From the NCBI RefSeq assembly GCF_000813725.1, contig NZ_JWLD01000008.1, forward strand, positions 1-64,000: a stretch of DNA of 64,000 nucleotides, read 5' to 3'. This DNA comes from Leisingera sp. ANG-Vp (GTDB lineage: Bacteria; Pseudomonadota; Alphaproteobacteria; Rhodobacterales; Rhodobacteraceae). Position numbers and translations under genes: made by a program. Shown here piece by piece: positions 4,382 through 33,830 of the stretch. The notes below the pieces were generated by a model. That model ran no database searches, was not told the DNA's origin, and saw nothing but the letters and a program-made list of their open reading frames with translations. How positions within the stretch are numbered: the first letter of the stretch is position 1; each line of letters opens with the position of its first letter.

Positions 4382-4410
4382 TTGACACAGCAGAGACGGG
4401 GCTTTTACAA
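4382..4410 (+). promoter_or_regulatory. Putative promoter of the cobalamin operon
   Basis: A perfect -35 hexamer TTGACA (4382-4387) is followed after 17 bases by a weaker -10 candidate TTACAA (4405-4410), immediately ahead of the riboswitch. The spacing is ideal; the -10 match is poor. Confidence 0.45.
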
Positions 4411-4606
4411 GGCGGTGATGGTTTTCCCCGGGGCCACTCCGGGGGGATGAAAAGGGAACACGGTGAGGTGTAGCCATCAGGCGCCAATTCCGTGACTGCC
4501 CCCGCAACTGTGTGCGGAGAGCAATGCTGCCACAAGCCACTGCCCCACAGAAGGGCGGGAAGGCGCAGCAAAGCCTCGACCCGCGAGTCAGGAGACCTGC
4601 CATCAG
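4410..4606 (+). promoter_or_regulatory. Cobalamin (AdoCbl-class) riboswitch
   Basis: The leader shows the conserved landmarks of the B12 riboswitch in order: an opening GGTG with a GC-rich P3-like hairpin (4432-4447), AAAAGGGAACACGGTGAGG, then ATTCCGTGACTGCCCCCGC with AACTGT, GCCACTG in the B12 box (near 4537), GGGCGGGAAGGCGC, and the closing CCGCGAGTCAGGAGACCTGCC (about 4581-4601). It precedes a DUF1636 gene and a BtuDFC-type ABC importer, which is the expected target. Binding of cobalamin should reduce expression, so the operon is expected to be on when cells are short of B12. Confidence 0.95.
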
Positions 4607-4650
4607 ATGTTCAACCAACCCGGGGCGGGGCGTCCTGGAAGGAGGCTTCT

Positions 4651-4737
4651 ATGGCACGTGTTTCCTGTGCCGTCATGACTGGCAGCTTCTCTCCGCGCGC
4701 GCAAATGTGCGAGGCGGATCATGCTGGAGTTTTGTGA
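4651..4737 (+). CDS. Putative 28-aa leader ORF after the riboswitch
   Basis: An ATG at 4651 stands six bases after a very strong ribosome-binding site (GGAAGGAGG) right after the riboswitch. It opens a 28-residue frame beginning MARVSCAVMTG and stopping at 4737. The frame overlaps the next gene's start (ATG 4721) by 17 bases, which would allow translational coupling. I recognise no homologue. It may be a genuine leader peptide through which the riboswitch acts on translation, or a relic of an older start of the DUF1636 gene in another frame. Confidence 0.4.
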   Translation: MARVSCAVMTGSFSPRAQMCEADHAGVL

Positions 4738-5077
4738 CCACACGATTCTGATCTGCGCCACCTGCAAAGGAGCGGCTGAAGCCAGTCGGCTGCGCGCAGC
4801 CCTCTCGGACCGCATCCCCGGGCGCTTTGCGCTGCGGGCTGTTGATTGCATGGCCGGTTGCGGCCAGCCGGTGACGGTGGGCTTTCAGGCTGAGGGCAAA
4901 GCCCAATACCTCTTTGGCGGCATCCAGTCCCCGGCGGACACCGAAGCACTGGCCCGCTTTGCGCACCAGTACCTGGCAAGCGAGACCGGCTGGACCAATG
5001 CCAGCGAACGCCCGGCGCAGCTTTATGACAAGACCCTGGCCCGGCTGCCGAGGATCAAGGCGGAGGCCGCGCCATGA
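4721..5077 (+). CDS. DUF1636 family metal-binding protein
   Basis: This 118-aa soluble protein has a cysteine pattern like that of thioredoxin-fold 2Fe-2S proteins: C12-x-x-C15 near the N-terminus (ICATCKG) and C43-x-x-x-C47 (CMAGCGQP), plus C5. This fits the DUF1636 family, described as predicted metal-binding and of unproven function. It is the first full gene after the cobalamin riboswitch and its stop overlaps the ATPase start by four bases (ATGA), so it belongs to the B12 uptake operon. A role in handling the corrinoid or in redox release of cobalt ligands is conceivable, but that is inference from context. Confidence 0.8.
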   Translation: MLEFCDHTILICATCKGAAEASRLRAALSDRIPGRFALRAVDCMAGCGQPVTVGFQAEGKAQYLFGGIQSPADTEALARFAHQYLASETGWTNASERPAQLYDKTLARLPRIKAEAAP

Positions 5078-5862
5078 CCGCTTCGCAGCCTTTCCTCAGC
5101 GTGCGCGGCCTGGAATATTACGCGCTGAACGGCGACGCCCTGGTAAGCGATGTCTCCTTCGATCTGGACAAGGGCGCTGTTCTTGCCATCGCCGGTCCCA
5201 ACGGAGCAGGCAAGTCAACATTGTTGAACCTCCTGTCCGGGATCGAGCCGCTGGCGCTTGGCGATGTGCTGGTCGGCGGGCAAAGCCTGCGGCAGATGAA
5301 GGCCGGGGAACGTGCCCGGATGATCGCCATCGTCAGCCAGCAGTCCGCACCCGACGGGCGGCTGCTCTTGCGCGACTACGTGGCGCTGGGGCAGATGCCG
5401 CTGGCCCGGACGCGCCCGGCTGAGCAGGATGCCACGGCGCTGGCCCGCATTCTCGATCTCACCGGCCTGGCGCATAAGGCCGGCAAGCCAATGGCCCAGC
5501 TCTCCGGCGGCGAGCGCCAGCGCGCTCATATTGCCCGCGCTCTGGCGCAGGAGCCTGCCCTTCTGGTGCTGGATGAGCCGACCAACCACCTGGATCCGGA
5601 CGCAAAGGGGCGGATGCTGTCGCTGGTCGCCTCGCTGGGGGTCACCGTGGTGATGGTGGTGCATGATCTGGTGATGATCCCCGAGTTCGCCACCCATGCG
5701 GCGCTGATGAAGGCCACCCGCCTCACCGCCTTTGGGCCGGCTGCCGAGGTGCTGACACCTGAAAGCGTGCAGGACACCTTTGGTGTCAGCTACCTGCGCT
5801 TGCCTCATGAAGGGCGGATGATCCCCGCCCTCGATATCCGGAAATCCCAAATTCAATTCTGA
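5074..5862 (+). CDS. btuD: ABC transporter ATP-binding protein, cobalamin/siderophore (BtuD/FecE) type
   Basis: This 262-aa ATPase drives import of a corrinoid or similar chelate from the periplasm. Walker A is GPNGAGKST (about residues 41-49), the signature is LSGGERQRAHIARAL (about 142-156), and Walker B is ALLVLDEPTNHLD. The Q-loop region reads MIAIVSQQS. It is coupled to DUF1636 by an ATGA overlap and followed by the binding protein and permease, completing a BtuCDF-like importer. Control by the upstream cobalamin riboswitch makes B12 or a precursor (cobinamide) the most likely cargo. No TonB receptor gene is present in the window. Confidence 0.9.
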   Translation: MTASQPFLSVRGLEYYALNGDALVSDVSFDLDKGAVLAIAGPNGAGKSTLLNLLSGIEPLALGDVLVGGQSLRQMKAGERARMIAIVSQQSAPDGRLLLRDYVALGQMPLARTRPAEQDATALARILDLTGLAHKAGKPMAQLSGGERQRAHIARALAQEPALLVLDEPTNHLDPDAKGRMLSLVASLGVTVVMVVHDLVMIPEFATHAALMKATRLTAFGPAAEVLTPESVQDTFGVSYLRLPHEGRMIPALDIRKSQIQF

Positions 5863-5878
5863 CTGATGGAGACGTGAA

Positions 5879-6823
5879 ATGAAACTGATCTGGACGGCTG
5901 CCGTTGCAGCCAGCCTGGCCACCGGCGCTGCTGCCGGGGTGACGGTCGACAACTGCGGCGCACCGCTGGAGTTCGATGCCGCACCGGAACGCCTGGTGGT
6001 GCATGACATCAACATGTCCGAAATGGCCTTTGCCCTGGGGCTGCAGGACAAAATGGTTGGCCTGACAGGCATCACCGGCTGGTACAAGACCAGCGCCGCG
6101 TTCGATGACGCCCGCGGCGATATTCCGGAACTGGCCCCCAAGTACCCGACCGTGGAGAACCTGGTTGCGGCCTCGCCCGACCTGTTCTTTGCCGGCTGGT
6201 ACTACGGCATGAAGCCCGGCGGCGAGGTGACCCCGGACACGCTGGAGCCTTTCGGCATCAAGACCATGGTGCTGACCGAAAGCTGCGTGCACTTGGACAA
6301 GGAACGCCCGGCGGCCTCCATGGACCTGCTGTTCGGCGACGTGCTGCGTCTGGGCCAGGTGATGCATGTCGAGGACAAGGCCGAGGCCCTGGTCTCCGGC
6401 TGGCAGGAGCAGCTGGCCGCCATCGAAGCCAAGACCGCGGATCAGCACAAGCCCCGCGTCTTCCTGCTGGACGGCCCGGCTGATGCGCCCTTCACCGCAG
6501 GCAAATTCGCAATCCCGGATGCAATGATCGCAGCCGCGGGCGGCGAAAGCGTCACCCATGAGCTCGACACCAGCTGGGGGCGCACCTCCTGGGAAGCGGT
6601 TGCCGCCGCCAACCCCGAATTCCTGGTGCTGCTGGACTACCAGAACGGCAACGGCGCCGAGGACACCTTCAAGTTCCTGCAGGAGCACCCGGTGATGGCC
6701 CATACCGACGCGGTCAAGAACGCCCGCTGGGTCGGCCTGCGCTATGAAGAGCTGACTCCTGGGCCGGCAAACATTGCTGCAATCGAAAAGATCGCCCAGG
6801 CCATGCACCCGGACCTGTTCTGA
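5879..6823 (+). CDS. btuF: Periplasmic corrinoid-binding protein (BtuF-like)
   Basis: This 314-aa protein starts with a Sec signal peptide (residues 1-19, MKLIWTAAVAASLATGAAA) and then shows the two-lobe, single-helix-linked binding-protein pattern of the BtuF/FepB class: RLVVHDINMSEMAFALGL, a TVENLVAASPDLFFAG segment in the first lobe, and TSWEAVAAANPEFLVLLDY in the second lobe. It should capture the corrinoid in the periplasm and deliver it to the permease encoded directly downstream (one base separates stop and next ATG). Riboswitch control supports cobalamin as ligand, although siderophore binders share this fold. Confidence 0.85.
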   Translation: MKLIWTAAVAASLATGAAAGVTVDNCGAPLEFDAAPERLVVHDINMSEMAFALGLQDKMVGLTGITGWYKTSAAFDDARGDIPELAPKYPTVENLVAASPDLFFAGWYYGMKPGGEVTPDTLEPFGIKTMVLTESCVHLDKERPAASMDLLFGDVLRLGQVMHVEDKAEALVSGWQEQLAAIEAKTADQHKPRVFLLDGPADAPFTAGKFAIPDAMIAAAGGESVTHELDTSWGRTSWEAVAAANPEFLVLLDYQNGNGAEDTFKFLQEHPVMAHTDAVKNARWVGLRYEELTPGPANIAAIEKIAQAMHPDLF

Positions 6824-6824
6824 T

Positions 6825-7838
6825 ATGGGCCGTTTCGGCCTTTCGCTGATACTGGGGGCGGCCGTTCTGGCCGCCCTCCTTCTGCTGTCGGTGCTTTACG
6901 GCACCACGGATGTTCCGGTCTCCGAAGTCTTCACCGCAATCGTCTCAGGCCTGGGGTTCAGCGCTGCCGAGCCCGAACCGATGCACCGGATCATCTTCGA
7001 TCTGCGTTTGCCGAGGGCGCTGTTTGCGGCGCTGATCGGCGCCGGGCTGGGGCTGGTCGGCGTGGTGCTGCAGACCACCACCCGCAACGACCTGGCCGAT
7101 CCGTTCCTGTTCGGCCTGTCCTCCGGCGCTGCTGCCGGAGCGGTGCTGGTCATCACCGTTACTGGCGATGTGCTGGGGATCTGGACCCTGCCGCTGGCCG
7201 CCTTCTGCGGCGGGCTGGTGGCCTCGGGCATCGTGCTCGCGCTGGTTCAGGCGCTGCAGACCAGCGCCCCCGAGAAACTGATCCTGGCAGGGCTTGCCGT
7301 CTCTTTCCTGTTTGCAGCCATCACCAACTACCTGATCTTCTCCGGCGACAACCGCGCCGCCCATTCAGTGATCTTCTGGATGCTGGGCGGGCTGGGGCTA
7401 GCCCGGTGGGAGACCCTGCCGCTGGTCGCCGCAGGCCTTGGCCTGATCCTGGCCTATGCGCTGTGGCGCAGCCGCTGGCTGGATGCGCTGCTGGCAGGCG
7501 ACATCACCGCCGCCAGCCTCGGCGTGCCGGTGAAATCCATGCGCTTCCGCATGTTCCTGGTCGCTGCGCTGTCCACCGCTGCCTTTGTCTCGGTTGCAGG
7601 CGTCATCGGCTTTGTCGGCCTGATGGTGCCCCATATCGCCCGCGGCCTGGCCGGGCCTCTGCACCGCCGCCTGCTGCCGCTGGCCGCCCTGACCGGTGCT
7701 ATCCTGCTCACCGGCTCCGATATCCTCTCCCGCCTCCTGCTCGCCCCGCAAGAGCTGCCGGTGGGCATCGTGACAACCTCCGTCGGCTCTGCCTTCGTCT
7801 TTCTGCTGCTGCTGGGAACCCGTAAACACGGCCGCTGA
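6825..7838 (+). CDS. btuC: ABC transporter permease, BtuC/FecCD family
   Basis: This 337-aa membrane protein has about nine to ten hydrophobic segments and the family hallmarks LRLPRALFAALIGAGLGLVGVVLQTTTRNDLADP near residues 55-90 and GFVGLMVPHIAR followed by LPLAALTGAILLTGSDILSRLL near the C-terminus. The ATG at 6825 starts directly after the binding-protein stop, so the two are translationally coupled. Two copies would pair with two copies of the upstream ATPase to import the corrinoid into the cytoplasm. The dehalogenase that needs a corrinoid cofactor lies only one gene further on. Confidence 0.92.
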   Translation: MGRFGLSLILGAAVLAALLLLSVLYGTTDVPVSEVFTAIVSGLGFSAAEPEPMHRIIFDLRLPRALFAALIGAGLGLVGVVLQTTTRNDLADPFLFGLSSGAAAGAVLVITVTGDVLGIWTLPLAAFCGGLVASGIVLALVQALQTSAPEKLILAGLAVSFLFAAITNYLIFSGDNRAAHSVIFWMLGGLGLARWETLPLVAAGLGLILAYALWRSRWLDALLAGDITAASLGVPVKSMRFRMFLVAALSTAAFVSVAGVIGFVGLMVPHIARGLAGPLHRRLLPLAALTGAILLTGSDILSRLLLAPQELPVGIVTTSVGSAFVFLLLLGTRKHGR

Positions 7839-7885
7839 CCGGCAATCCGGCCCTTGAAAATCAGGGCTGGCATTTCGCGGCAATA

Positions 7886-7904
7886 TAATTGACACTGTCA
7901 ATTA
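7886..7904. promoter_or_regulatory. Perfect 19-bp palindromic operator at the marR-rdhA promoter
   Basis: TAATTGACACTGTCAATTA is a perfect inverted repeat around a single central C. It overlaps a consensus -10 box TATAAT (7884-7889) and ends three bases before the MarR start codon. The size and symmetry suit a MarR dimer, so bound regulator would block the promoter. No Shine-Dalgarno sequence fits in the remaining leader. Confidence 0.75.
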
Positions 7905-7906
7905 CT

Positions 7907-8359
7907 ATGACCGAGTCCCGTTTCCGCCTTCACAACTCCCTGGGCTATCAGATCACCATGCTGGCCCGGGTGATCGAACGCCGCTTCGAACAGCGCATCG
8001 CCGGCTACGGCCTCACCCGGCCGATGTGGTGCGTGCTTCTGGCCGCAGGCCTGGAAGGGCTGCATACACCCTCAGAGATTGCTGCGTTCATCGGCATCGA
8101 CCGGACCGCCACTTCCCGCACCCTCCGGCTGATGGAGGAACGCGGCTTCATCCTCCGCAGCAGCGGCACAGGGGACGGGCGCTCGATCCGGGTGGAACTG
8201 ACCGCCCAGGGGCAAACCGCCTTGGACGCGGTCCTGCCGATCGCGCAGGAAAACGCGGCGTATTTCGAAGCCAAACTGGCAGAGACAGAGCTGCAGGAAC
8301 TGCGCCGCACTGCCGCCAAGCTGATGCAGGACGAACCGCGCACCGTTCCCAAGCTGTAA
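7907..8359 (+). CDS. MarR-family regulator, probable repressor of the dehalogenase operon
   Basis: This 150-aa regulator has the MarR winged-helix core: LGYQITMLARVIERRFEQRIAGYGLTRPMWCVLLAA, then EIAAFIGIDRTATSRTLRLMEERGFILRSSGTGDGRSIRVELTAQG covering the recognition helix and wing. MarR proteins usually repress and are released by phenolic or aromatic ligands, which would fit a halogenated aromatic inducer. I placed the start at ATG 7907, just after the palindrome, rather than at the TTG inside it. The gene is 16 bases upstream of the dehalogenase gene and almost surely cotranscribed with it, giving an autoregulated sensor-enzyme pair. Confidence 0.88.
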   Translation: MTESRFRLHNSLGYQITMLARVIERRFEQRIAGYGLTRPMWCVLLAAGLEGLHTPSEIAAFIGIDRTATSRTLRLMEERGFILRSSGTGDGRSIRVELTAQGQTALDAVLPIAQENAAYFEAKLAETELQELRRTAAKLMQDEPRTVPKL

Positions 8360-8375
8360 CTTGCAAGGAAAGACC

Positions 8376-11300
8376 ATGGGCAAACTGTTTTCCTACCGAA
8401 ACCGGCCGGTGCATCTGGGACCGTACCCTCTGGAAACCCTTGCACGCCAGGCTGTGCCTGCGGGTCTGGACTCCATCCCGCCGCTGCAGCAAATCTCCTT
8501 CCGCCGCCCCGAAGCGCCGCTGTCGATTGTCAACGCCATGCGCGACTATCAGGCGATGCTGGATGCCACCCGTGAAGGGCTGGTGAAGAAGGAATGCGCT
8601 GCCATCCCAGCCTGCCCGCAAGAGCGGGCTGACCACCTGAAGGCCTTCGGCTACTACTGCGATGCCTCGCTGGCGGGCGCCTGTGCTGTGCCGCAAGCCG
8701 CCTGGCTGGAAGAGCCGCTGGTCAACCCGGATGTGGACACGCTGGCCGAAACTCTGCGCTCGAAGCAGACCCAGACCTTTGCCTCGGGCATCGACGTGGT
8801 GCTGGCTTCCTTGCGCGAGGCGATGAAGGCGCCGCCGGTCAGCTGCCGCCATCACCCGCACGCCCTGGTCTTCATCTACGAATTCCCGCGTGACCCCGGG
8901 GCAGGGGAGGAAGGCACGGACTGGCTGCATGATGCGCAAGACCAGCGTGCCTGCTTGCGGGCTGCGGAAACAGTGGTGACGCTTGCCAATTACATCCGCC
9001 TGCTGGGCTGGGAAGCCCGTGCCCACACCGGCGCCGCTACCGACGTGCACCTGGGCCGGCTGGCGGTTCAGGCAGGGCTTGCCACTTATGAAAACGGCGT
9101 GCTGACCAATCCCTTCCTGGGCAGCCGCTTCGGCATCGCCGCAATTACCACCACGCTGGAGCTGGCACCGGATCAACCGCTGGTGCCGGGCCAAATACCG
9201 GGGCTCAAGTACCGCTTCGGCCTCGGTGCCCACGCCAAAAGCGCCGGCAGCCGCGACCCCTATGCTAAACGCGCCTTCAAGGACGGGCCGCACCCGTTTG
9301 AAACGCTCAAGCGCGTGTCAGATCCAACGACCTATATCGACGAGGCAAACGTCGCCCGCGTGCCCAAGCGCACCGACATGTTCGCCCGTGCGCTGTTCGG
9401 CGACATGGGCAAGGGACCGCAAGAGGCTGCCAGGAATGGCAACTACGTCCGCAAGTCTTCCTCTGCCTTTGCCTTCCGCTCGTCGCTGGCGGCCTTTGTC
9501 CTGCTGCAGGACGGGCAGGCCGCGCCACAGATCGACCCTTCCGCCGCGGACGCCGCCCGCAATGCTGCCAGCATCAAGGCCGCCGCCTATTTCCTTGGTT
9601 GCGATGCGGTGGGCATCTCGCGCTGCCCGGACTGGGCCTATTACTCGCACGACGCAGCGGGTGCGCCGCTGGCCCCGTACCACGAAAACGCCATCAGCAT
9701 GATCATCGACCAGGGTCACGAAACCATGGAGGGTGCCTCGGGCGACGACTGGATCGCCTGCGCCCAGTCGATGCGCGCCTACCTGCGGTTCTCGCTGCTG
9801 GGCGGGGTCATCGCGCAGCAGATCCGCAACCTCGGCTATACCGCCCGGGTGCATTCAGTGATGGATGGCGAGGTGCTGCAGCCGCCGCTGCTGCTGCTCT
9901 CGGGCCTGGGCGAGGTCTCCCGCATCGGCGAGGTGATCCTGAACCCGTTCCTTGGCCCCCGGCTGAAGTCCGGCGCGGTCACCACCAACCTGCCGATGAC
10001 CCATGATCTGCCTGTGGACTTTGGCCTGCAGCGGTTCTGTGAAGCCTGCAACAAATGCGCCCGCGAATGCCCGTCAGGTGCCATCACCGCCGGGCCCAAG
10101 CTGATGTTCAACGGTTACGAGATCTGGAAATCCGACAGCCAGAAATGCACCACCTACCGGGTCAGCACACCCGGCGGCGCCATGTGCGGCCGCTGCATGA
10201 AAACCTGCCCCTGGAACCTGGAAGGGCTGTTTGCCGAGGCACCGTTCCGCTGGGCTGCCATGAATGTGCCGGGCAGCGCCAAGGCGCTGGCAAAACTCGA
10301 TGACGCGCTGGGTAACGGCGAGGTCAACAAGGTCAAGAAATGGTGGTGGGATCTCGAGATGGAGGACGAGGGCCCCTATGACCCCACCCGCCATCCGGTG
10401 AATGAGCGCAAGCTCTCCAAGGATCTGGACCTGAAGTTCGAGGACCAAACGCTGGCGGTCTATCCCGCACCGCTGGCGCCGCCGCCCTACGCCTGGCCTG
10501 CGCCGATGGACCGGGAGGCCGGAATTGCGGCCTATCAGAATTTGATCACGGCCCAGGAGCACAAACGACGCCGTGCCGCAGGCTTGCCGCCGGAGCATGT
10601 CTATACCGCCGATCAGGGCGAAGCGCCGGTGATGCGGGTGCGCCTGTCGAAGGTGGAGCACATGACGGACAGCGTCACCAAGTATGAGTTCTCGCTGCCG
10701 GACGGTGCGGCTTTGCCTCCGGCCACAGCGGGTGCGCACATCGATGTGGTGGTGGCTCCGGAGTTCCTCCGTCAGTACTCGCTGTCCGGCGACCCGGCGG
10801 ACCCCTCCAAATACCAGATCGCGGTGCTGCGCGAGGACGAGGGCCGCGGCGGATCGAAACTCATGCACCGGATCTTCGAAGAGGGGCGGATGGTGTTCAT
10901 CTCAAAACCCATCAATCACTTCCCGCTGGTTGAGGATGCCGGCAAATCCTACCTCATGGGCGGCGGTATCGGGGTGACGCCGATGATCGCCATGGCGCAC
11001 CGGCTGCATGCTTTGGGCCGAGATTTCGAATTCCGCTATTCCTGTTCGAAAATGTCAAATGGGGGGTTCCTTGAGGATCTGAAGGGAGTTCCATGGGTTG
11101 ATAAAGTGCATCTGCATTTTTCCGATCAGGGCACCCGTGCTGACCTGAAGGAAGTGCTGCGGTACGTTCCGGGCAGCCAAGTCTACACCTGCGGGCCGGA
11201 CGCCTATATGCAGGCAGTGCTCGATACTGCGCGCGGCAACGGCTTTCCGGAAGAGAGCTGCCATATGGAGTATTTCTCAGTCCCTGAGCAGCCGGAATAC

Positions 11301-11573
11301 GAGAACCACGCCTTCACGCTGAAGCTGGCAAGCTCTGGACGCGAGATTGTTGTTCCGGCTGAGAAGACGGCAGCCGATGTGCTGCTGGAGCAGGGCTTTC
11401 ATGTGGATGTAAAATGCTCCGACGGCATCTGCGGCGTGTGCAAATGCGGGCTGATTTCGGGGGAGGCTGAGCACCGGGACTTTGTGCTCTCCAACAAGCA
11501 GCGCGAGGATGCCATTATCCTGTGCCAGTCCCGTGCCTTGGAGCCGGACGGCGTGCTGGAGATCGATTTGTAG
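8376..11573 (+). CDS. rdhA: Self-sufficient cobalamin-dependent reductive dehalogenase (RdhA fused to flavin/2Fe-2S reductase)
   Basis: This 1065-aa fusion protein should reductively remove a halogen from an organic, probably aromatic, substrate in the cytoplasm. Residues 1 to about 690 form the corrinoid-binding dehalogenase part. They contain two 4Fe-4S motifs, C555-x2-C558-x2-C561-x3-C565-P and C591 with C604-x2-C607-x3-C611-P. A DWAYYSHD segment (Y422/Y423) is a candidate site for the proton-donor tyrosine. Residues about 745-980 form an oxygenase-reductase-like flavin and NAD(P)H module (RQYSLSGD, GGGIGVTP), and the C-terminus is a plant-type 2Fe-2S ferredoxin (C1014, C1019, C1022, C1050). 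The layout equals that of Nitratireductor NpRdhA and Comamonas BhbA, which need no separate electron donor. There is no Tat signal, unlike respiratory enzymes. I chose ATG 8376 because of the upstream AAGGAAAG. Confidence 0.92.
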   Translation: MGKLFSYRNRPVHLGPYPLETLARQAVPAGLDSIPPLQQISFRRPEAPLSIVNAMRDYQAMLDATREGLVKKECAAIPACPQERADHLKAFGYYCDASLAGACAVPQAAWLEEPLVNPDVDTLAETLRSKQTQTFASGIDVVLASLREAMKAPPVSCRHHPHALVFIYEFPRDPGAGEEGTDWLHDAQDQRACLRAAETVVTLANYIRLLGWEARAHTGAATDVHLGRLAVQAGLATYENGVLTNPFLGSRFGIAAITTTLELAPDQPLVPGQIPGLKYRFGLGAHAKSAGSRDPYAKRAFKDGPHPFETLKRVSDPTTYIDEANVARVPKRTDMFARALFGDMGKGPQEAARNGNYVRKSSSAFAFRSSLAAFVLLQDGQAAPQIDPSAADAARNAASIKAAAYFLGCDAVGISRCPDWAYYSHDAAGAPLAPYHENAISMIIDQGHETMEGASGDDWIACAQSMRAYLRFSLLGGVIAQQIRNLGYTARVHSVMDGEVLQPPLLLLSGLGEVSRIGEVILNPFLGPRLKSGAVTTNLPMTHDLPVDFGLQRFCEACNKCARECPSGAITAGPKLMFNGYEIWKSDSQKCTTYRVSTPGGAMCGRCMKTCPWNLEGLFAEAPFRWAAMNVPGSAKALAKLDDALGNGEVNKVKKWWWDLEMEDEGPYDPTRHPVNERKLSKDLDLKFEDQTLAVYPAPLAPPPYAWPAPMDREAGIAAYQNLITAQEHKRRRAAGLPPEHVYTADQGEAPVMRVRLSKVEHMTDSVTKYEFSLPDGAALPPATAGAHIDVVVAPEFLRQYSLSGDPADPSKYQIAVLREDEGRGGSKLMHRIFEEGRMVFISKPINHFPLVEDAGKSYLMGGGIGVTPMIAMAHRLHALGRDFEFRYSCSKMSNGGFLEDLKGVPWVDKVHLHFSDQGTRADLKEVLRYVPGSQVYTCGPDAYMQAVLDTARGNGFPEESCHMEYFSVPEQPEYENHAFTLKLASSGREIVVPAEKTAADVLLEQGFHVDVKCSDGICGVCKCGLISGEAEHRDFVLSNKQREDAIILCQSRALEPDGVLEIDL

Positions 11574-11583
11574 CGGCAGCTGC

Positions 11584-11976
11584 TTAGAACGGCTGCCGCT
11601 CGCCCAGCAGATAGCGGGCAACGTCGGCATAATCAAAGGCGAGCGAAACAGAAAGCACTGCGCTAACCGCCAGAATGATGTGCCGGGGCAGGGCGGGCAT
11701 ATCCGTGCGCTGACGCTGGCGCCAAAGCCAGATGACCAGCGGAGTCCACAGCAGCACATGCGGCAGCCCCAGGAGCCGTACATACCCGAGCTGGCCGTAA
11801 ATCCAGTAGACCCCGCCGGCGGCGGCAATGCTGACGGCCACGGTCGCCGCTCCCGCAATCCGGCTGGGCTTCCAGATCAGCAGTGCCAGCGGCAGAACGA
11901 AACCGCCGAAAAACAGCAGGTTCAGCCAGATCTGCACCCATTGCGGCTGGGTGGCGATTGCCTCTTCCAAAGTCAT
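11584..11976 (-). CDS. Small multi-pass membrane protein of unknown function
   Basis: The 130-aa product has about four hydrophobic segments (LNLLFFGGFVLPLALLIW, GAATVAVSIAAAGGVYWIYG, LPHVLLWTPLVIWLW and HIILAVSAVLSVSLAF) joined by short charged loops. It begins MTLEEAIATQPQWVQ. I recognise no named family. It is convergent to the dehalogenase gene with only ten bases between the stops; the GCGGCAG/CTGCCGC hairpin over 11573-11599 may terminate both. Nothing links it functionally to dehalogenation, since it is on the opposite strand. The sulfatase gene lies 53 bp upstream on the same strand. Confidence 0.7.
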   Translation of the reverse strand: MTLEEAIATQPQWVQIWLNLLFFGGFVLPLALLIWKPSRIAGAATVAVSIAAAGGVYWIYGQLGYVRLLGLPHVLLWTPLVIWLWRQRQRTDMPALPRHIILAVSAVLSVSLAFDYADVARYLLGERQPF

Positions 11977-12029: not shown

Positions 12030-13496
12030 CTACAGCGGAGATCCTTCGCGCATCTTGTCCTGCTCTGACGGGGTGGGCGTGTGATTGAACACATAAGCGG
12101 TGCGGCAAGCGTCCTCGCCGCCCAATTCCTCAATCCTGCGGCGCTGATCCGCAAAGGCACGTGCATTTGCCGCTTCAGGATCGCAGATCGCCTGCAGCCG
12201 CCGCTCGCCCTCAGCCAGGGCAGCATTGATCTCCGGATCATTCACCCCGTCCATGGCCCGGTTCATTTGCTCATGCGGATCCGCCTCCAGATCGAACAGC
12301 TGCGGCTGCATCCCGGCGTAGTAGACGTATTTCCACTTGCTCCAGCGCACCATGAAGGCGCCGGTTTTCGAGCCGCCGTCGTGATACTCGCTGAACCCGG
12401 TACGGGCCGCGTCGTAGGGTGCACTGGCGATTGAACGCAGCGAGACGCCCGGCAGGCCCGTCTCCTGTGCCACACCGCAAACCTCGCGCGCAGTGGCGGC
12501 GATATCGGTCAGATTTGTGCAGGTTGCCACAATTGCGCCCGCCGGCACGCCCGGGCCCGCGGCAATCATCGGCACCCCGGCGCTGGCCTCATACATCACC
12601 TGTTTGGTCCAGAACCCCTGGTCTCCCATCATGTCGCCATGGTCCGAAACATAAAGGATCACCGTGTTTTCCAGCTGGCCGCTGGCCTCCAGAGCCTTGA
12701 TCACCCGGCCCATGCAATCATCCATAAAAGATGTCAGCCCGTAATACGCTGCCTTGGCCTCGCGCATCTTCTGCTCGTCGAAGTAATCATCGTAGTTGAA
12801 GAACTCTGCTATGTTGCGCAGCTCCTCGTGGTCCGGCAGCCCTTCGCCATAGCCTACCGGCAAGTCCATGTCTGCCGGGTCGTACATGCTGTACCACTCC
12901 TCCGGGCAGGTGAGCGGGTAATGCGGGCTGACCAGCGAAACAAACGCGGCCCAAGGCTGCTCCTGCCGCTTGGGATCGGCAAGCCAGGCCTCCGCTGCAT
13001 CGGTGATCGCCAGGTCATAATCGGTATAGGTGCTGGAGCCAGTGCCGACATCGCCGGCCAGTTCTGCCGCCGAGTCATAAGGCGGCGGGTTTTCCCGCAG
13101 CAGGCCGATCGCCCAGCCGACGCCGCCCACCACATGCATCGGCACGATCTCTTCGGAGAACCCGTTGTCATTCTCGCTTGAGCGGAAATGCAGCTTGCCG
13201 ATCGACACCACCTCGCGGCCCGCCTCCCGCAGCGCATGCATCCAGCTCTGCGGCTTCCCGGCATAGGGCGTGGCACTGTCCCAATGGCCGGTCTTGTGCA
13301 CCCAATTGCCGGTGGCCAGCGCTGCCCGGGTCGGCACGCACATCGGCGAAGGCGTATAGGCCGAGGTGAACATCGTGCCCCGCGCCGCCAGCGCATCCAG
13401 ATTCGGCGTCTTCACAATCGGATGGCCCGCGCAGCCCATCGCATCCTTGCGGTGCTCGTCGGAAATTATGACCAGGAAATTCGGCTGCTCGCTCAT
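12030..13496 (-). CDS. Type I sulfatase/phosphonate monoester hydrolase family enzyme
   Basis: This 488-aa hydrolase carries the formylglycine motif C53-V-P-T-R57 (CxPxR), in which the Cys is oxidised to the catalytic aldehyde hydrate. Metal ligands are suggested by D13-E14 near the N-terminus (IISDEHR) and by the later SDHGDMMGDQG. The sequence resembles the choline-sulfatase and phosphonate-monoesterase branch. There is no signal peptide, so the substrate would be cleaved in the cytoplasm. I chose ATG 13496 because of the GGGAGGA before it; the open frame extends further upstream without support. A divergent LysR gene shares the promoter region with a 10-bp-arm inverted repeat and probably controls it. 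The exact sulfate or phosphonate ester is unknown. Confidence 0.88.
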   Translation of the reverse strand: MSEQPNFLVIISDEHRKDAMGCAGHPIVKTPNLDALAARGTMFTSAYTPSPMCVPTRAALATGNWVHKTGHWDSATPYAGKPQSWMHALREAGREVVSIGKLHFRSSENDNGFSEEIVPMHVVGGVGWAIGLLRENPPPYDSAAELAGDVGTGSSTYTDYDLAITDAAEAWLADPKRQEQPWAAFVSLVSPHYPLTCPEEWYSMYDPADMDLPVGYGEGLPDHEELRNIAEFFNYDDYFDEQKMREAKAAYYGLTSFMDDCMGRVIKALEASGQLENTVILYVSDHGDMMGDQGFWTKQVMYEASAGVPMIAAGPGVPAGAIVATCTNLTDIAATAREVCGVAQETGLPGVSLRSIASAPYDAARTGFSEYHDGGSKTGAFMVRWSKWKYVYYAGMQPQLFDLEADPHEQMNRAMDGVNDPEINAALAEGERRLQAICDPEAANARAFADQRRRIEELGGEDACRTAYVFNHTPTPSEQDKMREGSPL

Positions 13497-13580
13497 CGGA
13501 TCCTCCCTAACGCCGCCTGTGCCGCAATGGCCAGGCAGCCAGGCCACACAGTTGTGGAAATCCGCGCGGCAATCCAATAG

Positions 13581-13613
13581 ATAAATTTTCCATCTCTTGA
13601 TAAGAAAATTTAT
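13581..13613. promoter_or_regulatory. 10-bp-arm inverted repeat, probable LysR operator
   Basis: ATAAATTTTC (13581-13590) and GAAAATTTAT (13604-13613) are exact reverse complements, 13 bases apart. They sit between the sulfatase and LysR starts and end eight bases before the LysR ATG. The long AT-rich arms stand out in a GC-rich region. Confidence 0.65.
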
Positions 13614-13621
13614 GGCAAGGC

Positions 13622-14494
13622 ATGACGACACCTCTGAAGTGGCTGCACAATTTCGAAGCTGTTGCCCGGCTCGGCAATATGACATTGGCCGCGCAGGAGG
13701 TCGGGCTGACCCAGGCGGCGCTCAGCCAGCAGATGCAGGCGCTGGAAACCCACCTGAAACTGCAGCTGTTCACCCGCGAGCCGCGCGGCATGTCGCTCAC
13801 CGCCTCCGGCGCACAGCTTTACAGCGATGTGTCCCCCGGGCTGGAGCAGATCAGCAACGCCCTGAAACGCTACCAGCAACCGCAGAGCAGCCGTCTGCGC
13901 ATCCTCTGCAACGCCAGTTTCGCCCTGCGCTGGCTGATCCCCAACATGCCGCGGTTCCATGCTCTCCATCCTGACATCCAGGTGGAGACCCGAACTGCCC
14001 TCTGGCGTCCCGAGAGGCACGGCTACGACCCGGATGCCGAGATATTCCTGGGCGGCCCGGTGCAGCCGGCGCCCGCCAAGGCCATCATGCACTGCGAAAT
14101 CGCTGCGGTTCACGCACCAAGCTGCCCCGAGGAGGGCCCGAAGCCGGTGATCCGTATCAGCGGCCAGGAAAGCCTGTTCGAAGAATGGCTCAAGACCCCG
14201 CGCTTTACGGCCTCCAAGGCCCGTCAAATCCTCGAAGTGGACAGCGTGCACGCTGCGGTCAGCCTCGCTGCAGATGGCCTCGGCTGGACCCTGTGCCCCT
14301 CTTTCCTGGTCCGCGAGGAGGTGCAATCCGGACGGCTCGTTGCAATGGATGCCGGCGTTTCGGCGCCTAAAAGGGCCTATTGGCTCCAGTTGAAAAACCG
14401 CCCCGGTGCGGCGGCCGAGGTTTTTTGCGATTGGATTTCCGCGGCGGCGGCCGACACTCAGACCGGAAGTTGCGCCGCTGGCTCGGCGCCATGA
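13622..14494 (+). CDS. LysR-type regulator (GcvA-like), divergent to sulfatase
   Basis: The 290-aa protein has the LysR winged helix at residues about 3-62 (LKWLHNFEAVARLGNMTLAAQEVGLTQAALSQQMQALE, then FTREPRGMSLTASG) followed by a periplasmic-binding-like effector domain. In that domain SRLRILCNASFALRWLIPNMPRF is the typical first strand and helix of the GcvA/AmpR group. It is transcribed away from the sulfatase gene with 125 bp between the starts and a strong inverted repeat directly before its ATG, so autorepression plus activation of the sulfatase is the simple model. The effector is unknown. Confidence 0.88.
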   Translation: MTTPLKWLHNFEAVARLGNMTLAAQEVGLTQAALSQQMQALETHLKLQLFTREPRGMSLTASGAQLYSDVSPGLEQISNALKRYQQPQSSRLRILCNASFALRWLIPNMPRFHALHPDIQVETRTALWRPERHGYDPDAEIFLGGPVQPAPAKAIMHCEIAAVHAPSCPEEGPKPVIRISGQESLFEEWLKTPRFTASKARQILEVDSVHAAVSLAADGLGWTLCPSFLVREEVQSGRLVAMDAGVSAPKRAYWLQLKNRPGAAAEVFCDWISAAAADTQTGSCAAGSAP

Positions 14495-14679: not shown

Positions 14680-15882
14680 ATGACGGACAACAGGCTGCCG
14701 GTCACGGTGCTGTCGGGCTTTCTTGGCGCCGGCAAGACCACCCTTCTGAACCACGTGCTGAACAACCGCGCGGGCCGCCGGGTGGCGGTCATCGTCAACG
14801 ACATGAGCGAAGTAAACATCGACGCCGATCTGGTGCGCGGTGAAACCGAACTGTCGCGCCAGGACGAAAAACTGGTGGAAATGACCAATGGCTGCATCTG
14901 CTGCACCCTTCGCGACGACCTGCTGCAGGAGGTAAGACGCCTCGCTGCCGAGGGCCGGTTCGACTACCTTCTGATCGAAAGCACCGGCATCGCCGAGCCG
15001 CTGCCGGTGGCGGCGACTTTTGATTTCCGCGATGCGGACGGCGAGAGCCTCTCGGATGTTGCCCGCCTCGACACTATGGTCACCGTGGTCGATGCGGTGA
15101 ACCTGCTGCAGGACTTCTCCAGCCACGATTTCCTCAGCGACCGCGGCGAAAGCCTGGGCGAGGAGGACGACCGCACCCTGGTCAACCTTCTCACCGACCA
15201 GATCGAATTTTCCAATGTCATCATCCTGAACAAGGTGAGTGAAGCCGGACCGGCCAAGACCGAAGCCGCGATGCTGGTCATCAAGTCGCTGAACCCGGAT
15301 GCCGAAGTGATCCATGCGGATTACTCCGAGGTGGATGGCGACCGCATCTTCGACACAGGCCGGTTCGACTTTGACCGCGCCCATGAGCATCCCCTGTGGG
15401 CCAAGGAGCTGTACGGGTTCGAGCACCATGTGCCCGAGACCGAAGAATATGGCATCTCCTCCTTTGTCTACCGCGCCAAGCGTCCCTTTGATCCAGCCAA
15501 AATCCATGCGCTGCTGAACGGCGATCTGCCGGGCGTGATCCGCGCCAAGGGCCATTTCTGGATGGCCACCCGCCCTGAATGGGCCGCTGAGTTTTCCCTT
15601 GCCGGCGCCATCTCCTCGGTCCGCCCGCTGGGCCTGTGGTGGGCGGCAGTGCCAACCGAGCGCTGGCCCAGCCACCCGGAAGCCCGGCGCGAGTTCCTGC
15701 AGAACTGGGATGAAACCTGGGGCGACCGGCGCCAGGAACTGGTTTTCATCGGCTCCGGCCTGGATGAGGCGGCAACCGCCGCGCGCCTGGATGCCTGCCT
15801 GATGCCGGAAACCGCAGGCGGCTTTGACCCGGCCTGGGCATCGCTCGAGGACCCGTTCCCAAGCTGGCGCCGGAATGGCTGA
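14680..15882 (+). CDS. COG0523/CobW-type GTP-binding metallochaperone, likely zinc-related (ZigA/YciC-like)
   Basis: The 400-aa G3E GTPase has the P-loop GFLGAGKTT (residues 13-21), the metal-binding C72-I-C74-C75 motif of the family, the switch sequence ESTGIAEP, the guanine-specificity motif NKVS near 187, and a CobW C-terminal domain ([14 protein letters not shown], then [11 protein letters not shown]). COG0523 proteins use GTP to insert or store metal. CobW itself acts in cobalamin synthesis, but the Zur-like box directly upstream argues that this copy serves zinc supply in deficiency. A small protein gene overlaps its stop codon and is translationally coupled. Confidence 0.9.
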
Positions 15883-31900: not shown

Positions 31901-33067
31901 GTGCCGGTTATCACCAATATCAACGACCTGAAGCGCATCTATGAACGCCGTGTTCCGCGGATGTTCTTTGACTATGCCGAAAGCGGCAGCTGGACCGAGC
32001 AGACCTTCCGCGAGAACACCTCGGACTTTGAGCAGATCCGCCTGCGGCAGCGGGTGGCGGTGGATATGGCGGGGCGGACAACTGCGAGCCAGATGATCGG
32101 CCAGGACGTGGCGATGCCGGTGGCCCTGGCGCCGGTGGGGCTGACAGGGATGCAGCACGCCGATGGCGAGATCAAAGCGGCGAAGGCAGCCGAGGAATTC
32201 GGTGTGCCCTTCACTCTGTCGACCATGTCGATCAACTCGATCGAGGAGGTGGCGGAGGCCACGGACAAGCCGTTCTGGTTCCAGCTCTATACCATGCGGG
32301 ACGAGGACTATATCCGCCGCCTGATCCAGCGGGCGAAGGATGCCAAATGCTCGGCGCTGGTGATTACGCTGGACCTGCAGATCCTGGGGCAGCGCCACAA
32401 GGATCTGAAAAACGGGCTGTCGGCGCCGCCGAAGCTGACACCGGCCACCATTGCCAACCTGATGACCAAATGGGCTTGGGGCATCGAAATGCTGGGTGCC
32501 AAGCGGCGCAACTTCGGCAATATCGTTGGGCACGTGCATGGGGTCTCGGATACCTCGCAGCTGGGCGCCTGGACGGCAGAGCAGTTCGACCCGTCGCTTG
32601 ACTGGGGCAAGATCGAAAAGCTGATGGAGATGTGGGGCGGCAAGGTGATCCTGAAAGGGATCCTGGACGCCGACGATGCGAAGATGGCGGCCAAACTGGG
32701 CGCGGACGCCATTGTGGTGTCGAACCACGGCGGACGGCAGCTGGACGGGGCCTTAAGCTCGATCCGGATGCTGCCGGAGATCATGGACGCAGTGGGCAAT
32801 GATGTCGAAGTGCATCTGGACAGCGGCATCCGTTCCGGCCAGGACGTGCTGAAGGCACTGGCGCTGGGCGCCAAGGGCACGATGATCGGCCGGGCCTTTG
32901 TCTACGGGCTGGGCGCGCGCGGCCAAAAGGGCGTCACCGAGGCGCTGGAGGTGATTCGCAAGGAGCTGGACACCACCATGGCACTGTGCGGCGAACGCTC
33001 GGTAGAGGCCTTGGGGCGCCATAATTTGCTGATCCCCGAGGATTTCGGAGGCCGCTGGCAGGAATAG
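31901..33067 (+). CDS. lldD: FMN-dependent alpha-hydroxy acid dehydrogenase (L-lactate dehydrogenase LldD type)
   Basis: This 388-aa flavoenzyme oxidises L-lactate or another 2-hydroxy acid. Diagnostic segments are RRVPRMFFDYAESGSWTEQTFREN, MPVALAPVGLTGMQHADGE, FWFQLYTMRDEDY, VITLDLQILGQRHKDL, and the catalytic region GADAIVVSNHGGRQLDGALSS with the active-site His. The start is GTG 31901 after GGGAGAGA; the open frame reaches further upstream without family similarity. Lactate is the default substrate, but mandelate- or glycolate-type activity cannot be excluded. Confidence 0.92.
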   Translation: MPVITNINDLKRIYERRVPRMFFDYAESGSWTEQTFRENTSDFEQIRLRQRVAVDMAGRTTASQMIGQDVAMPVALAPVGLTGMQHADGEIKAAKAAEEFGVPFTLSTMSINSIEEVAEATDKPFWFQLYTMRDEDYIRRLIQRAKDAKCSALVITLDLQILGQRHKDLKNGLSAPPKLTPATIANLMTKWAWGIEMLGAKRRNFGNIVGHVHGVSDTSQLGAWTAEQFDPSLDWGKIEKLMEMWGGKVILKGILDADDAKMAAKLGADAIVVSNHGGRQLDGALSSIRMLPEIMDAVGNDVEVHLDSGIRSGQDVLKALALGAKGTMIGRAFVYGLGARGQKGVTEALEVIRKELDTTMALCGERSVEALGRHNLLIPEDFGGRWQE

Positions 33068-33191
33068 TGCTGCCACCGGGCCAGGCAGGGGTGTTTGCCC
33101 CTTCCCAAAACCCGTCAACCGGTCTATAGGCACGGCTTCACGCGGGGTGACAGCCTTGGAGGCACCCCGATAGTCATATTGGAGAATTAAG

Positions 33192-33830
33192 ATGGCAAAA
33201 GAGATTCCTGATCTCGTAGCCCAGGAACGTGCGGGGACGGGCAAGGGCGCCGCTCGCGCTGCGCGCCGCGCAGGCATGGTTCCGGGTGTGGTTTACGGTG
33301 GCGACGTTGAGCCGCTGGCAATCCAGATCCCGTTCAACGAGCTGCTGAAAAAGCTGAAAGCCGGCCAGTTCAAGTCCACCCTGTGGAACCTGAAAGTGGA
33401 AGGCCAGGACGACGTGCGCGTGATCTGCCGCGACGTTCAGCGCGACGTTGTCAAAGACCTGCCGACCCACCTGGACCTGATGCGCCTGCGCCGCACCTCG
33501 AAAATCAACCTGTTCATCCCGGTTGAATTCGTGGGCGAAGAAGCAGCTCCCGGCATCAAAAAAGGCGGCATGCTGACCGTTGTCCGCCCCGAGGTGGAAC
33601 TGAACGTGACCGCAGGCGACATCCCGGAAAAAATCACCGTGGACATCACCGGCCTGAACATCGGCGATGTTGTCACCATCTCGTCCGTGGATCTGCCGAA
33701 AGGCTCCAAGCCGACCATCGACCGCGACTTCGTGATTGCGAACATCGCAGCGCCGGCCGGCCTTGGCTCCTCCGATGACGAAGAGGGCGAAGGCGAAGAA
33801 GGCGAAGCAGCGGAAGCCGCTGAAGCATAA
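33192..33830 (+). CDS. rplY: 50S ribosomal protein L25/general stress protein Ctc
   Basis: The 212-aa 5S-rRNA-binding protein has an N-terminal L25 domain ([26 protein letters not shown]; about 1-95), a C-terminal TL5/Ctc beta-domain, and a Glu-rich acidic tail ([19 protein letters not shown]). This long form with acidic tail is normal for alphaproteobacteria. ATG 33192 follows TTGGAGAATTAAG. In many relatives pth follows directly; here a DadA-like gene is inserted between them. Confidence 0.97.

Follow-up and report, generated by a model that had tools for sequence, protein, structure and literature searches.

The window analysed here, positions 1 to 64,000 of contig NZ_JWLD01000008.1 of Leisingera sp. 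ANG-Vp, carries a row of plus-strand elements made of a cobalamin (vitamin B12) riboswitch, a DUF1636 gene, three ATP-binding cassette (ABC) importer genes, a MarR-family gene and a gene for a 1065-residue reductive dehalogenase (RdhA) fused to a flavin/2Fe-2S reductase. All of these, listed in a preliminary description of the DNA, were found. That description saw in them a self-contained module coupling cofactor uptake to a cofactor-dependent enzyme. We consider it likely, instead, that they are two separately evolved units standing side by side, a marR-rdhA operon and a portable B12-importer cassette. What looked like an attractive operon is in this case a pair of cofactor-sharing neighbours joined in one lineage, and it is a comparison of 180 loci that separates the old link, between marR and rdhA, from that with the importer, which is not old.

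The neighbourhoods of 190 rdhA loci, 180 of them distinct after de-duplication, were compared: that of the window, 29 fused loci of a set of relatives (L034-L062), and two groups of 80. The first group held the best 80 of 570 encoding stretches, a choice biased to near relatives; the second, from 186 positive genomes, was hand-picked among the matches listed, before any neighbourhood was seen, and omits most of the top block, in which a single genus predominates, as well as matches at contig edges and some others. Four loci without a full-length fusion (L063-L066) were excluded. Flanks averaged 8.0 and 7.2 kb, some being ended by contig ends, and the 180 distinct relatives were 54 to 93% identical to the window RdhA.

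DUF1636 and BtuF homologues of the window type stood beside rdhA at only 2 of the 180 loci, the window and locus L034 of a sister genome (G020), whose RdhA is 93% identical to that of the window. Near one other rdhA (L056), a BtuC homologue of 37% identity was found. BtuF was matched in 7 of 101 relatives at E <= 1e-40, and an rdhA match occurred among these only in the window genome (G000) and G020; the BtuF-positive genome G093 matches the rdhA query by its reductase only. In other genera the cassette is also found with no rdhA nearby: riboswitch, DUF1636 and three ABC genes were found together, with no rdhA match in the stretch, at four places (L076, L077, L078 and L079), riboswitch and ABC genes with no DUF1636 match at L075, DUF1636 and ABC genes at L073, and ABC genes at L074, the last two with no riboswitch match. 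Within the genus, DNA similarity to the window, counted in matches longer than 150 bp, began at 7865-7928 in all 15 other loci, that is, between 42 nt before the marR start and 21 nt inside marR, and the DNA ahead of marR was of five unrelated kinds among the 16 loci of the genus that were compared (L038, a duplicate, was dropped). The importer looks like a later, lineage-specific arrival and not a general partner of the enzyme.

The MarR gene behaved otherwise. Counting same-strand relatives of the window MarR at E <= 1e-10, it adjoined rdhA in 17 of 17 same-genus rdhA loci and in 43 of the 180 distinct loci, so that comparison of the cluster across relatives upheld the marR-rdhA half of the proposed arrangement and not the importer-rdhA half. 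MarR genes of other types, including a divergent one in Jannaschia sp. M317, fall outside the 43, and elsewhere rdhA has other regulators nearby; 15 loci, for instance, have a divergent LysR-family gene (one representative scanned). When 183 proteins were placed on a FastTree tree with BhbA as the root, parsimony gave six changes of MarR adjacency, and a 57-member clade (FastTree support 1.0) contained 42 of the 44 MarR-labelled rows, one of these labels (Aminobacter) being taken from annotation. The older unit is marR-rdhA, not importer plus rdhA.

Directly before the marR start stood TAGTTGACANTGTCAACTA or a near form; in the window, this palindrome overlaps a TATAAT at 7884-7889. Agreement at 13 or more of 18 positions was found in 40 of the 43 marR-rdhA loci; shuffled regions reached it in 0.6% of cases, and regions upstream of rdhA in 1 of 43. 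The consensus had been drawn from the same loci on which it was then tested, and the shuffles kept base composition only. The only exact match to the core RTTGACANTGTCAAY in the 5.15-Mb genome lies before marR, and a tandem second copy was present in four same-genus loci (L040, L043, L045, L046). A PADLOC scan of three proteins returned a single weak match, to MarR. The local sensor gene proposed earlier would come with a conserved candidate operator of its own, and marR-rdhA looks like a dedicated, self-repressing circuit. As to the claim of one gene row with almost no gaps, most junctions are indeed tight. The 68-nt btuC-marR gap does not fit it: because this gap contains the conserved operator and the TATAAT, the row probably comprises at least two transcription units, and a separate marR-rdhA promoter is presumed.

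The alternative is that importer and enzyme are one functional unit, in which uptake of B12 is coupled to a B12-hungry dehalogenase by read-through or co-selection. B12 control of the enzyme would require read-through from the riboswitch unit. Besides the way in which the operator was scored, several points weigh against two independent units, and some favour this alternative. The stricter operator pattern, which was tried first, was present in 12 of 27 named loci. The importer and marR are adjacent, on the same strand and 68 nt apart, and scans that performed at chance level found no terminator-like match between btuC and marR and no sigma-70-like promoter anywhere; read-through, and hence a coupling of the enzyme to B12, may take place. 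The importer is kept in both species with a low ratio of nonsynonymous to synonymous substitution (dN/dS). B12 genes also lie no more than 6 kb from rdhA in two other lineages: in L056 a riboswitch lies at -2.9 kb, divergent, at a probable btu operon (btuB-btuF-btuC side), and in L137 (Maritalea) riboswitches at -5.4 and +4.2 kb accompany CobW- and CobN-like genes, the gene names at both loci being read from translations, except for the 37% BtuC match of L056 and a 31% COG0523-type match in L137. JtRdhA, the likeness of which is drawn on below, was compared through its description in parts of PMC10463259 and not by sequence alignment.

We therefore asked how often riboswitches lie near rdhA in general. 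The 2.74 Mb of flank around the 180 rdhA genes, scanned with a home-made nhmmer profile trained on 8 riboswitches (that of the window and seven others), contained them in three lineages (window/L034, L056 and L137); the profile recovered all 8 training riboswitches and 6 of 6 in the window genome, one of them weakly (E 9.6e-5). Judged by how many riboswitches 16 genomes of the family and 21 of the genus contain, 1.26 were expected by chance, giving P(>=3) = 0.13 by lineages. Counting each riboswitch match gives P(>=5) = 0.009, a figure that overstates the excess because two of the matches descend from a single event and two others come from the same locus. There is no clear excess of riboswitches near rdhA, though this is not proof of none, and a general linkage of rdhA with B12 genes was rejected as unproven. 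With this importer beside rdhA in one lineage only, a cassette that travels without rdhA, and a marR-rdhA unit with its own operator and presumed promoter, we hold a single functional unit to be distinctly unlikely.

Coordinates of the two neighbouring units are given in the table below.

Table. Elements of the importer cassette and of the marR-rdhA unit (positions in the window)
Element	Position	Strand	Evidence or remark
Cobalamin riboswitch aptamer	4402..4618	+	RF00174, 133.4 bits (gathering score 31.5), E 2.3e-33, full model 1-189
Leader open reading frame (ORF), 28 codons	4651..4737	+	strong Shine-Dalgarno GGAAGGAGG; overlaps DUF1636 start
DUF1636, thioredoxin-like [2Fe-2S] ferredoxin-type protein	4721..5077	+	PF07845, 71.2 bits (cut-off 31.6)
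ABC ATPase (BtuD-type)	5074..5862	+	PF00005, 108.6 bits
Periplasmic substrate-binding protein (BtuF-type)	5879..6823	+	PF01497, 76.1 bits
FecCD permease (BtuC-type)	6825..7838	+	PF01032, 299.2 bits
Palindromic presumed MarR operator TAATTGACACTGTCAATTA	7886..7904	.	overlaps TATAAT, ends 2 nt before marR ATG
MarR-family regulator	7907..8359 (start approximate)	+	PF01047, 40.1 bits (cut-off 24.6)
RdhA-PDOR fusion, 1065 aa	8376..11573	+	TIGR02486 (NCBIfam), 195.2 bits (cut-off 160.35)

The riboswitch itself was confirmed, with a start at 4402 where 4410 had been given, and it was also present in the sister genome (L034, 2525-2742). It is separated from DUF1636 by 102 nt. DUF1636 and btuD overlap by 4 nt, and the remaining gaps are of 16 nt (BtuD-BtuF), 1 nt (BtuF-BtuC) and 16 nt (MarR-RdhA). 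The leader ORF, out of frame with DUF1636, has an open equivalent in L034, and a similar Shine-Dalgarno precedes an ATG upstream of DUF1636 in L076 and L077; it may serve as the expression platform. The fold given for DUF1636 in the table follows the portion of PMC4520260 that treats it. No BtuB outer-membrane receptor was among the cluster genes. In two other genera (L077 and L078), a ZigA-like zinc metallochaperone gene lies divergent from the cassette, 75-76% identical to the one at window positions 14680-15882.

A riboswitch-led importer is thus present, whose proteins belong to the general families PF00005, PF01497 and PF01032. All three miss the NCBIfam equivalog cut-offs, with 39.7 against 234 bits for BtuF, 197.2 against 334 for BtuC and 129.9 against 281 for BtuD; their best scores, also below cut-off, were on putative F420-0 ABC models. 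The BtuF-type protein has weak PDB matches to BtuF, the best being 4mlz. This leaves room for a cargo other than cobalamin, such as a cobamide precursor or a cobalt or metal chelate, with DUF1636 acting on that metal, the more so as no riboswitch was detected at L073 and L074, two places in one genome whose BtuF is second in similarity only to that of the sister genome. A strong cobalamin riboswitch lies directly upstream here, however, and at 5 of the 7 related importer places examined, and we find such a cargo unlikely. General family and riboswitch together point to a BtuDFC-type importer. Elsewhere in the genome, contig C71 carries a second DUF1636, a riboswitch and genes whose products pass the CobN and CobI/CbiL cut-offs; because the host probably makes B12 itself, the importer would serve salvage.

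Between the window and the sister species, dN/dS was 0.04-0.16 in the eight genes compared, and these low values suggest that the importer is in use and under purifying selection. The segment 4494-5893 was 94-100% identical between the two species, other 200-nt blocks being 75-96% identical, and dS was 0.044 for BtuD against 0.34-0.57 for BtuF, BtuC, MarR and RdhA. This suggests a likely recent recombination across the riboswitch end, DUF1636 and btuD.

The last gene encodes, as first described, an RdhA fused to a flavin/2Fe-2S reductase, both the reductive dehalogenase family and the phthalate-dioxygenase reductase (PDOR) domain being matched. NpRdhA is the closest solved structure (538.9 bits), and residues 751-1062 match phthalate dioxygenase reductase (2pia, 184.1 bits), with a Fer2 domain at 985-1054. 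By position counting along the alignment, residues F291, S422, M423, Y426, K488 and R552 of NpRdhA correspond to F336, S465, M466, Y469, K531 and R595, the register at 488 being confirmed by the K488Q variant structure 6zy0. None of the key corrinoid-site residues tested was lost, and these six were identical in 180 of 180 distinct loci, as were the two [4Fe-4S] sets (C555/C558/C561/C565 and C591/C604/C607/C611) and PDOR residues R799, S802, G863, G864, G866 and C1050; PDOR cysteines C1014/C1019/C1022 were kept in 179 of 180, with one gap. A vestigial duplication of the corrinoid domain was seen at the N-terminus, residues 288-547 having matches of 27-29% in the N-terminal region of L034 and L038, and the N-terminal region also aligns to 4ras. 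No twin-arginine (TAT) motif was seen by eye at the RdhA N-terminus. H448, at the position of NpRdhA Y405, was considered as a lost catalytic residue and rejected: the catalytic Y426 ends the motif QSMRAY and is retained, and position 448 is variable (Y in 83, H in 58, F in 33, R in 5 and Q in 1 of 180). Two rdhA copies, L049 (G013:C136) and L245, contain in-frame stops, possibly by decay or assembly error.

These residues support a fused RdhA of the cobalamin-dependent type and of the BhbA/JtRdhA kind, with the tested catalytic residues intact. That it might be an epoxyqueuosine-reductase-like or other corrinoid reductase and not a dehalogenase finds an echo in a distant kinship to QueG (TIGR00276, 27.6 bits). 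That score lies far below the cut-off of 200, whereas the reductive dehalogenase cut-off was passed; with the NpRdhA catalytic residues invariant and 50% identity to BhbA, described in parts of PMC10463259 as a bromoxynil-degradation dehalogenase, this alternative is very improbable.

The fused enzyme is common in the order, not exotic. From the order, 390 genomes of at least 90% completeness and no more than 5% contamination were sampled, and a 17-row profile matched 186 of them, belonging to 58 of 139 genera, at E <= 1e-100; the matches listed covered nearly the whole profile. In the nearer sample, 36 of 101 genomes matched the single protein at E <= 1e-60, a count that includes reductase-only and PDOR-less matches, and within the genus the fused gene was in 17 of 21 genomes and not in 4. 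We did not find its frequency in the order stated in the literature, mostly without subscription papers and with no search made for frequency alone. Roughly half of the good-quality genomes in this sample of the order thus have an enzyme studied so far mainly for bioremediation. The MarR-linked enzymes also have a pocket signature: His448 and Cys462 occurred together in 39 of the 43 MarR loci, against 16 of 137 others. Worth noting besides this signature are the one-site MarR circuit and how often genomes of the order carry the enzyme. A broader reading would make oxygen-tolerant debromination a near-core trait of marine Rhodobacterales run by a one-operator sensor circuit, would give the MarR-linked clade, by its distinct pocket (Cys at the A419 and His at the Y405 position), a distinct natural substrate, and would have read-through from the captured B12 cassette tie cofactor supply to the enzyme in one lineage. 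Taken whole, it appears to us at best doubtful.

We propose the following for the two separate units. The first (7886-11573) would be an autoregulated marR-rdhA operon, in which MarR would occupy the single palindrome at the promoter presumed for marR and keep marR and rdhA repressed until released by an aromatic, probably halophenolic, ligand. In RdhA-PDOR, electrons would pass from NAD(P)H through FMN, the 2Fe-2S cluster and the two 4Fe-4S clusters to the corrinoid cobalt; the enzyme would remove an ortho bromine (or iodine) from phenols, with Y469, K531 and R595 (NpRdhA Y426, K488 and R552) binding the phenol and donating the proton. The dehalogenated product would enter aerobic aromatic catabolism; a likely pobA lies elsewhere in the genome. 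The second unit (4402-7838), a portable cassette of cobalamin riboswitch, DUF1636 and ABC corrinoid importer, would have come upstream of marR in an ancestor of two Leisingera-like species and have been retained by purifying selection as a B12 salvage system. The candidate sensor and operator open a route to experiments on the natural substrate, for which marine bromophenols are the probable choice.

Two genes lie convergent with rdhA, a 130-aa gene of no assigned family (11584-11976) and a sulfatase (12030-13685). The sulfatase, with matches in 12 of 17 same-genus rdhA loci, some as pieces, carries CVPTR, which we take to be a formylglycine (FGly)-type motif. Sulfated bromophenols exist in algae, and one may speculate that it is a desulfating partner for them; it lies on the opposite strand to rdhA, and outside the genus, sulfatase matches near rdhA were of only 27-29% identity, in 3 of 79 other named loci. 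On the opposite strand close upstream of rdhA, an MttB-family (trimethylamine methyltransferase-like) gene was found in 30 of 180 loci (e.g. L133:6996-8552) and an HAD-type gene in 32 of 180, one representative of each having been scanned. The decarboxylase that neighbours the locus in sister genomes had no match in the window genome, in a search without positive control.

Among characterised systems, JtRdhA of the marine Jhaorihella thermophila shares with the window enzyme a marine host, the domain order, the equivalents of Y426, K488 and R552 and the lack of a TAT signal, according to the sections of PMC10463259 consulted for this comparison. It is described there as debrominating and deiodinating phenols with NADPH in air, the chloro compounds tested being inhibitors only (PMC10463259). 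The brominated phenols suggested earlier as substrates fit this homologue, and because it acts on bromine and iodine and is only inhibited by chloro compounds, halogenated phenols are a reasonable substrate, with bromine and iodine likelier than chlorine. Neither riboswitch nor operon occurs in the main text of that paper, and the one article found to pair Leisingera with reductive dehalogenases (PMC4926216) merely lists the genus in a soil table, in the part of it seen.

NpRdhA of Nitratireductor pacificus (4ras, 6zxu) has the same corrinoid/4Fe-4S core, vestigial N-terminal domain and active-site residues. Unlike the window enzyme it has no PDOR domain, and its pocket residues A419 and N452 are C462 and V495 here, by position counting along the alignment; A419 is described as a pocket residue of NpRdhA (PMC7565698). 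Ros_A3X954 resembles our system in its marine roseobacter host, catabolic role, lack of a TAT signal and activity on 2,6-dibromophenol, but it differs in a much shorter RdhA part with Fe-S motifs at 283-294 and 337-345 (PMC13101508, in part). Its motifs resemble not the fused enzyme but a second, short RdhA without PDOR in the window genome (L085:8244-9440; G000:C129, about 32600-33415), whose CSICTKCADACP and CAICMRVCP are closely similar to those reported for this debrominase (PMC13101508, same part). In Dehalococcoides mccartyi, the MarR protein Rdh2R controls a reductive dehalogenase gene (cited in PMC7755780, in part), a likeness to an organism that differs in being an obligate organohalide respirer.

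BhbA, from plasmid pBHB of Comamonas sp. 7D-2 (L278), is a full-length fusion with 50% identity to the window enzyme, and its catalytic and Fe-S residues are the same. Its context includes ligA, extradiol dioxygenase and transporter genes, and no B12 importer is annotated in 27 kb, in an incomplete gene table. No protocatechuate/4-hydroxybenzoate genes are annotated beside the fused enzyme in Ruegeria sp. TM1040, Jannaschia sp. M317 and Aminobacter sp. Such genes surround the fused enzyme on pBHB and in Nitratireductor sp. OM-1, which fits a catabolic role, and a pobA-like protein on contig C128 of the window genome is 58% identical to its OM-1 counterpart. Set beside these systems, the kind of enzyme is one already known, and the module arrangement is real in one lineage and not conserved.

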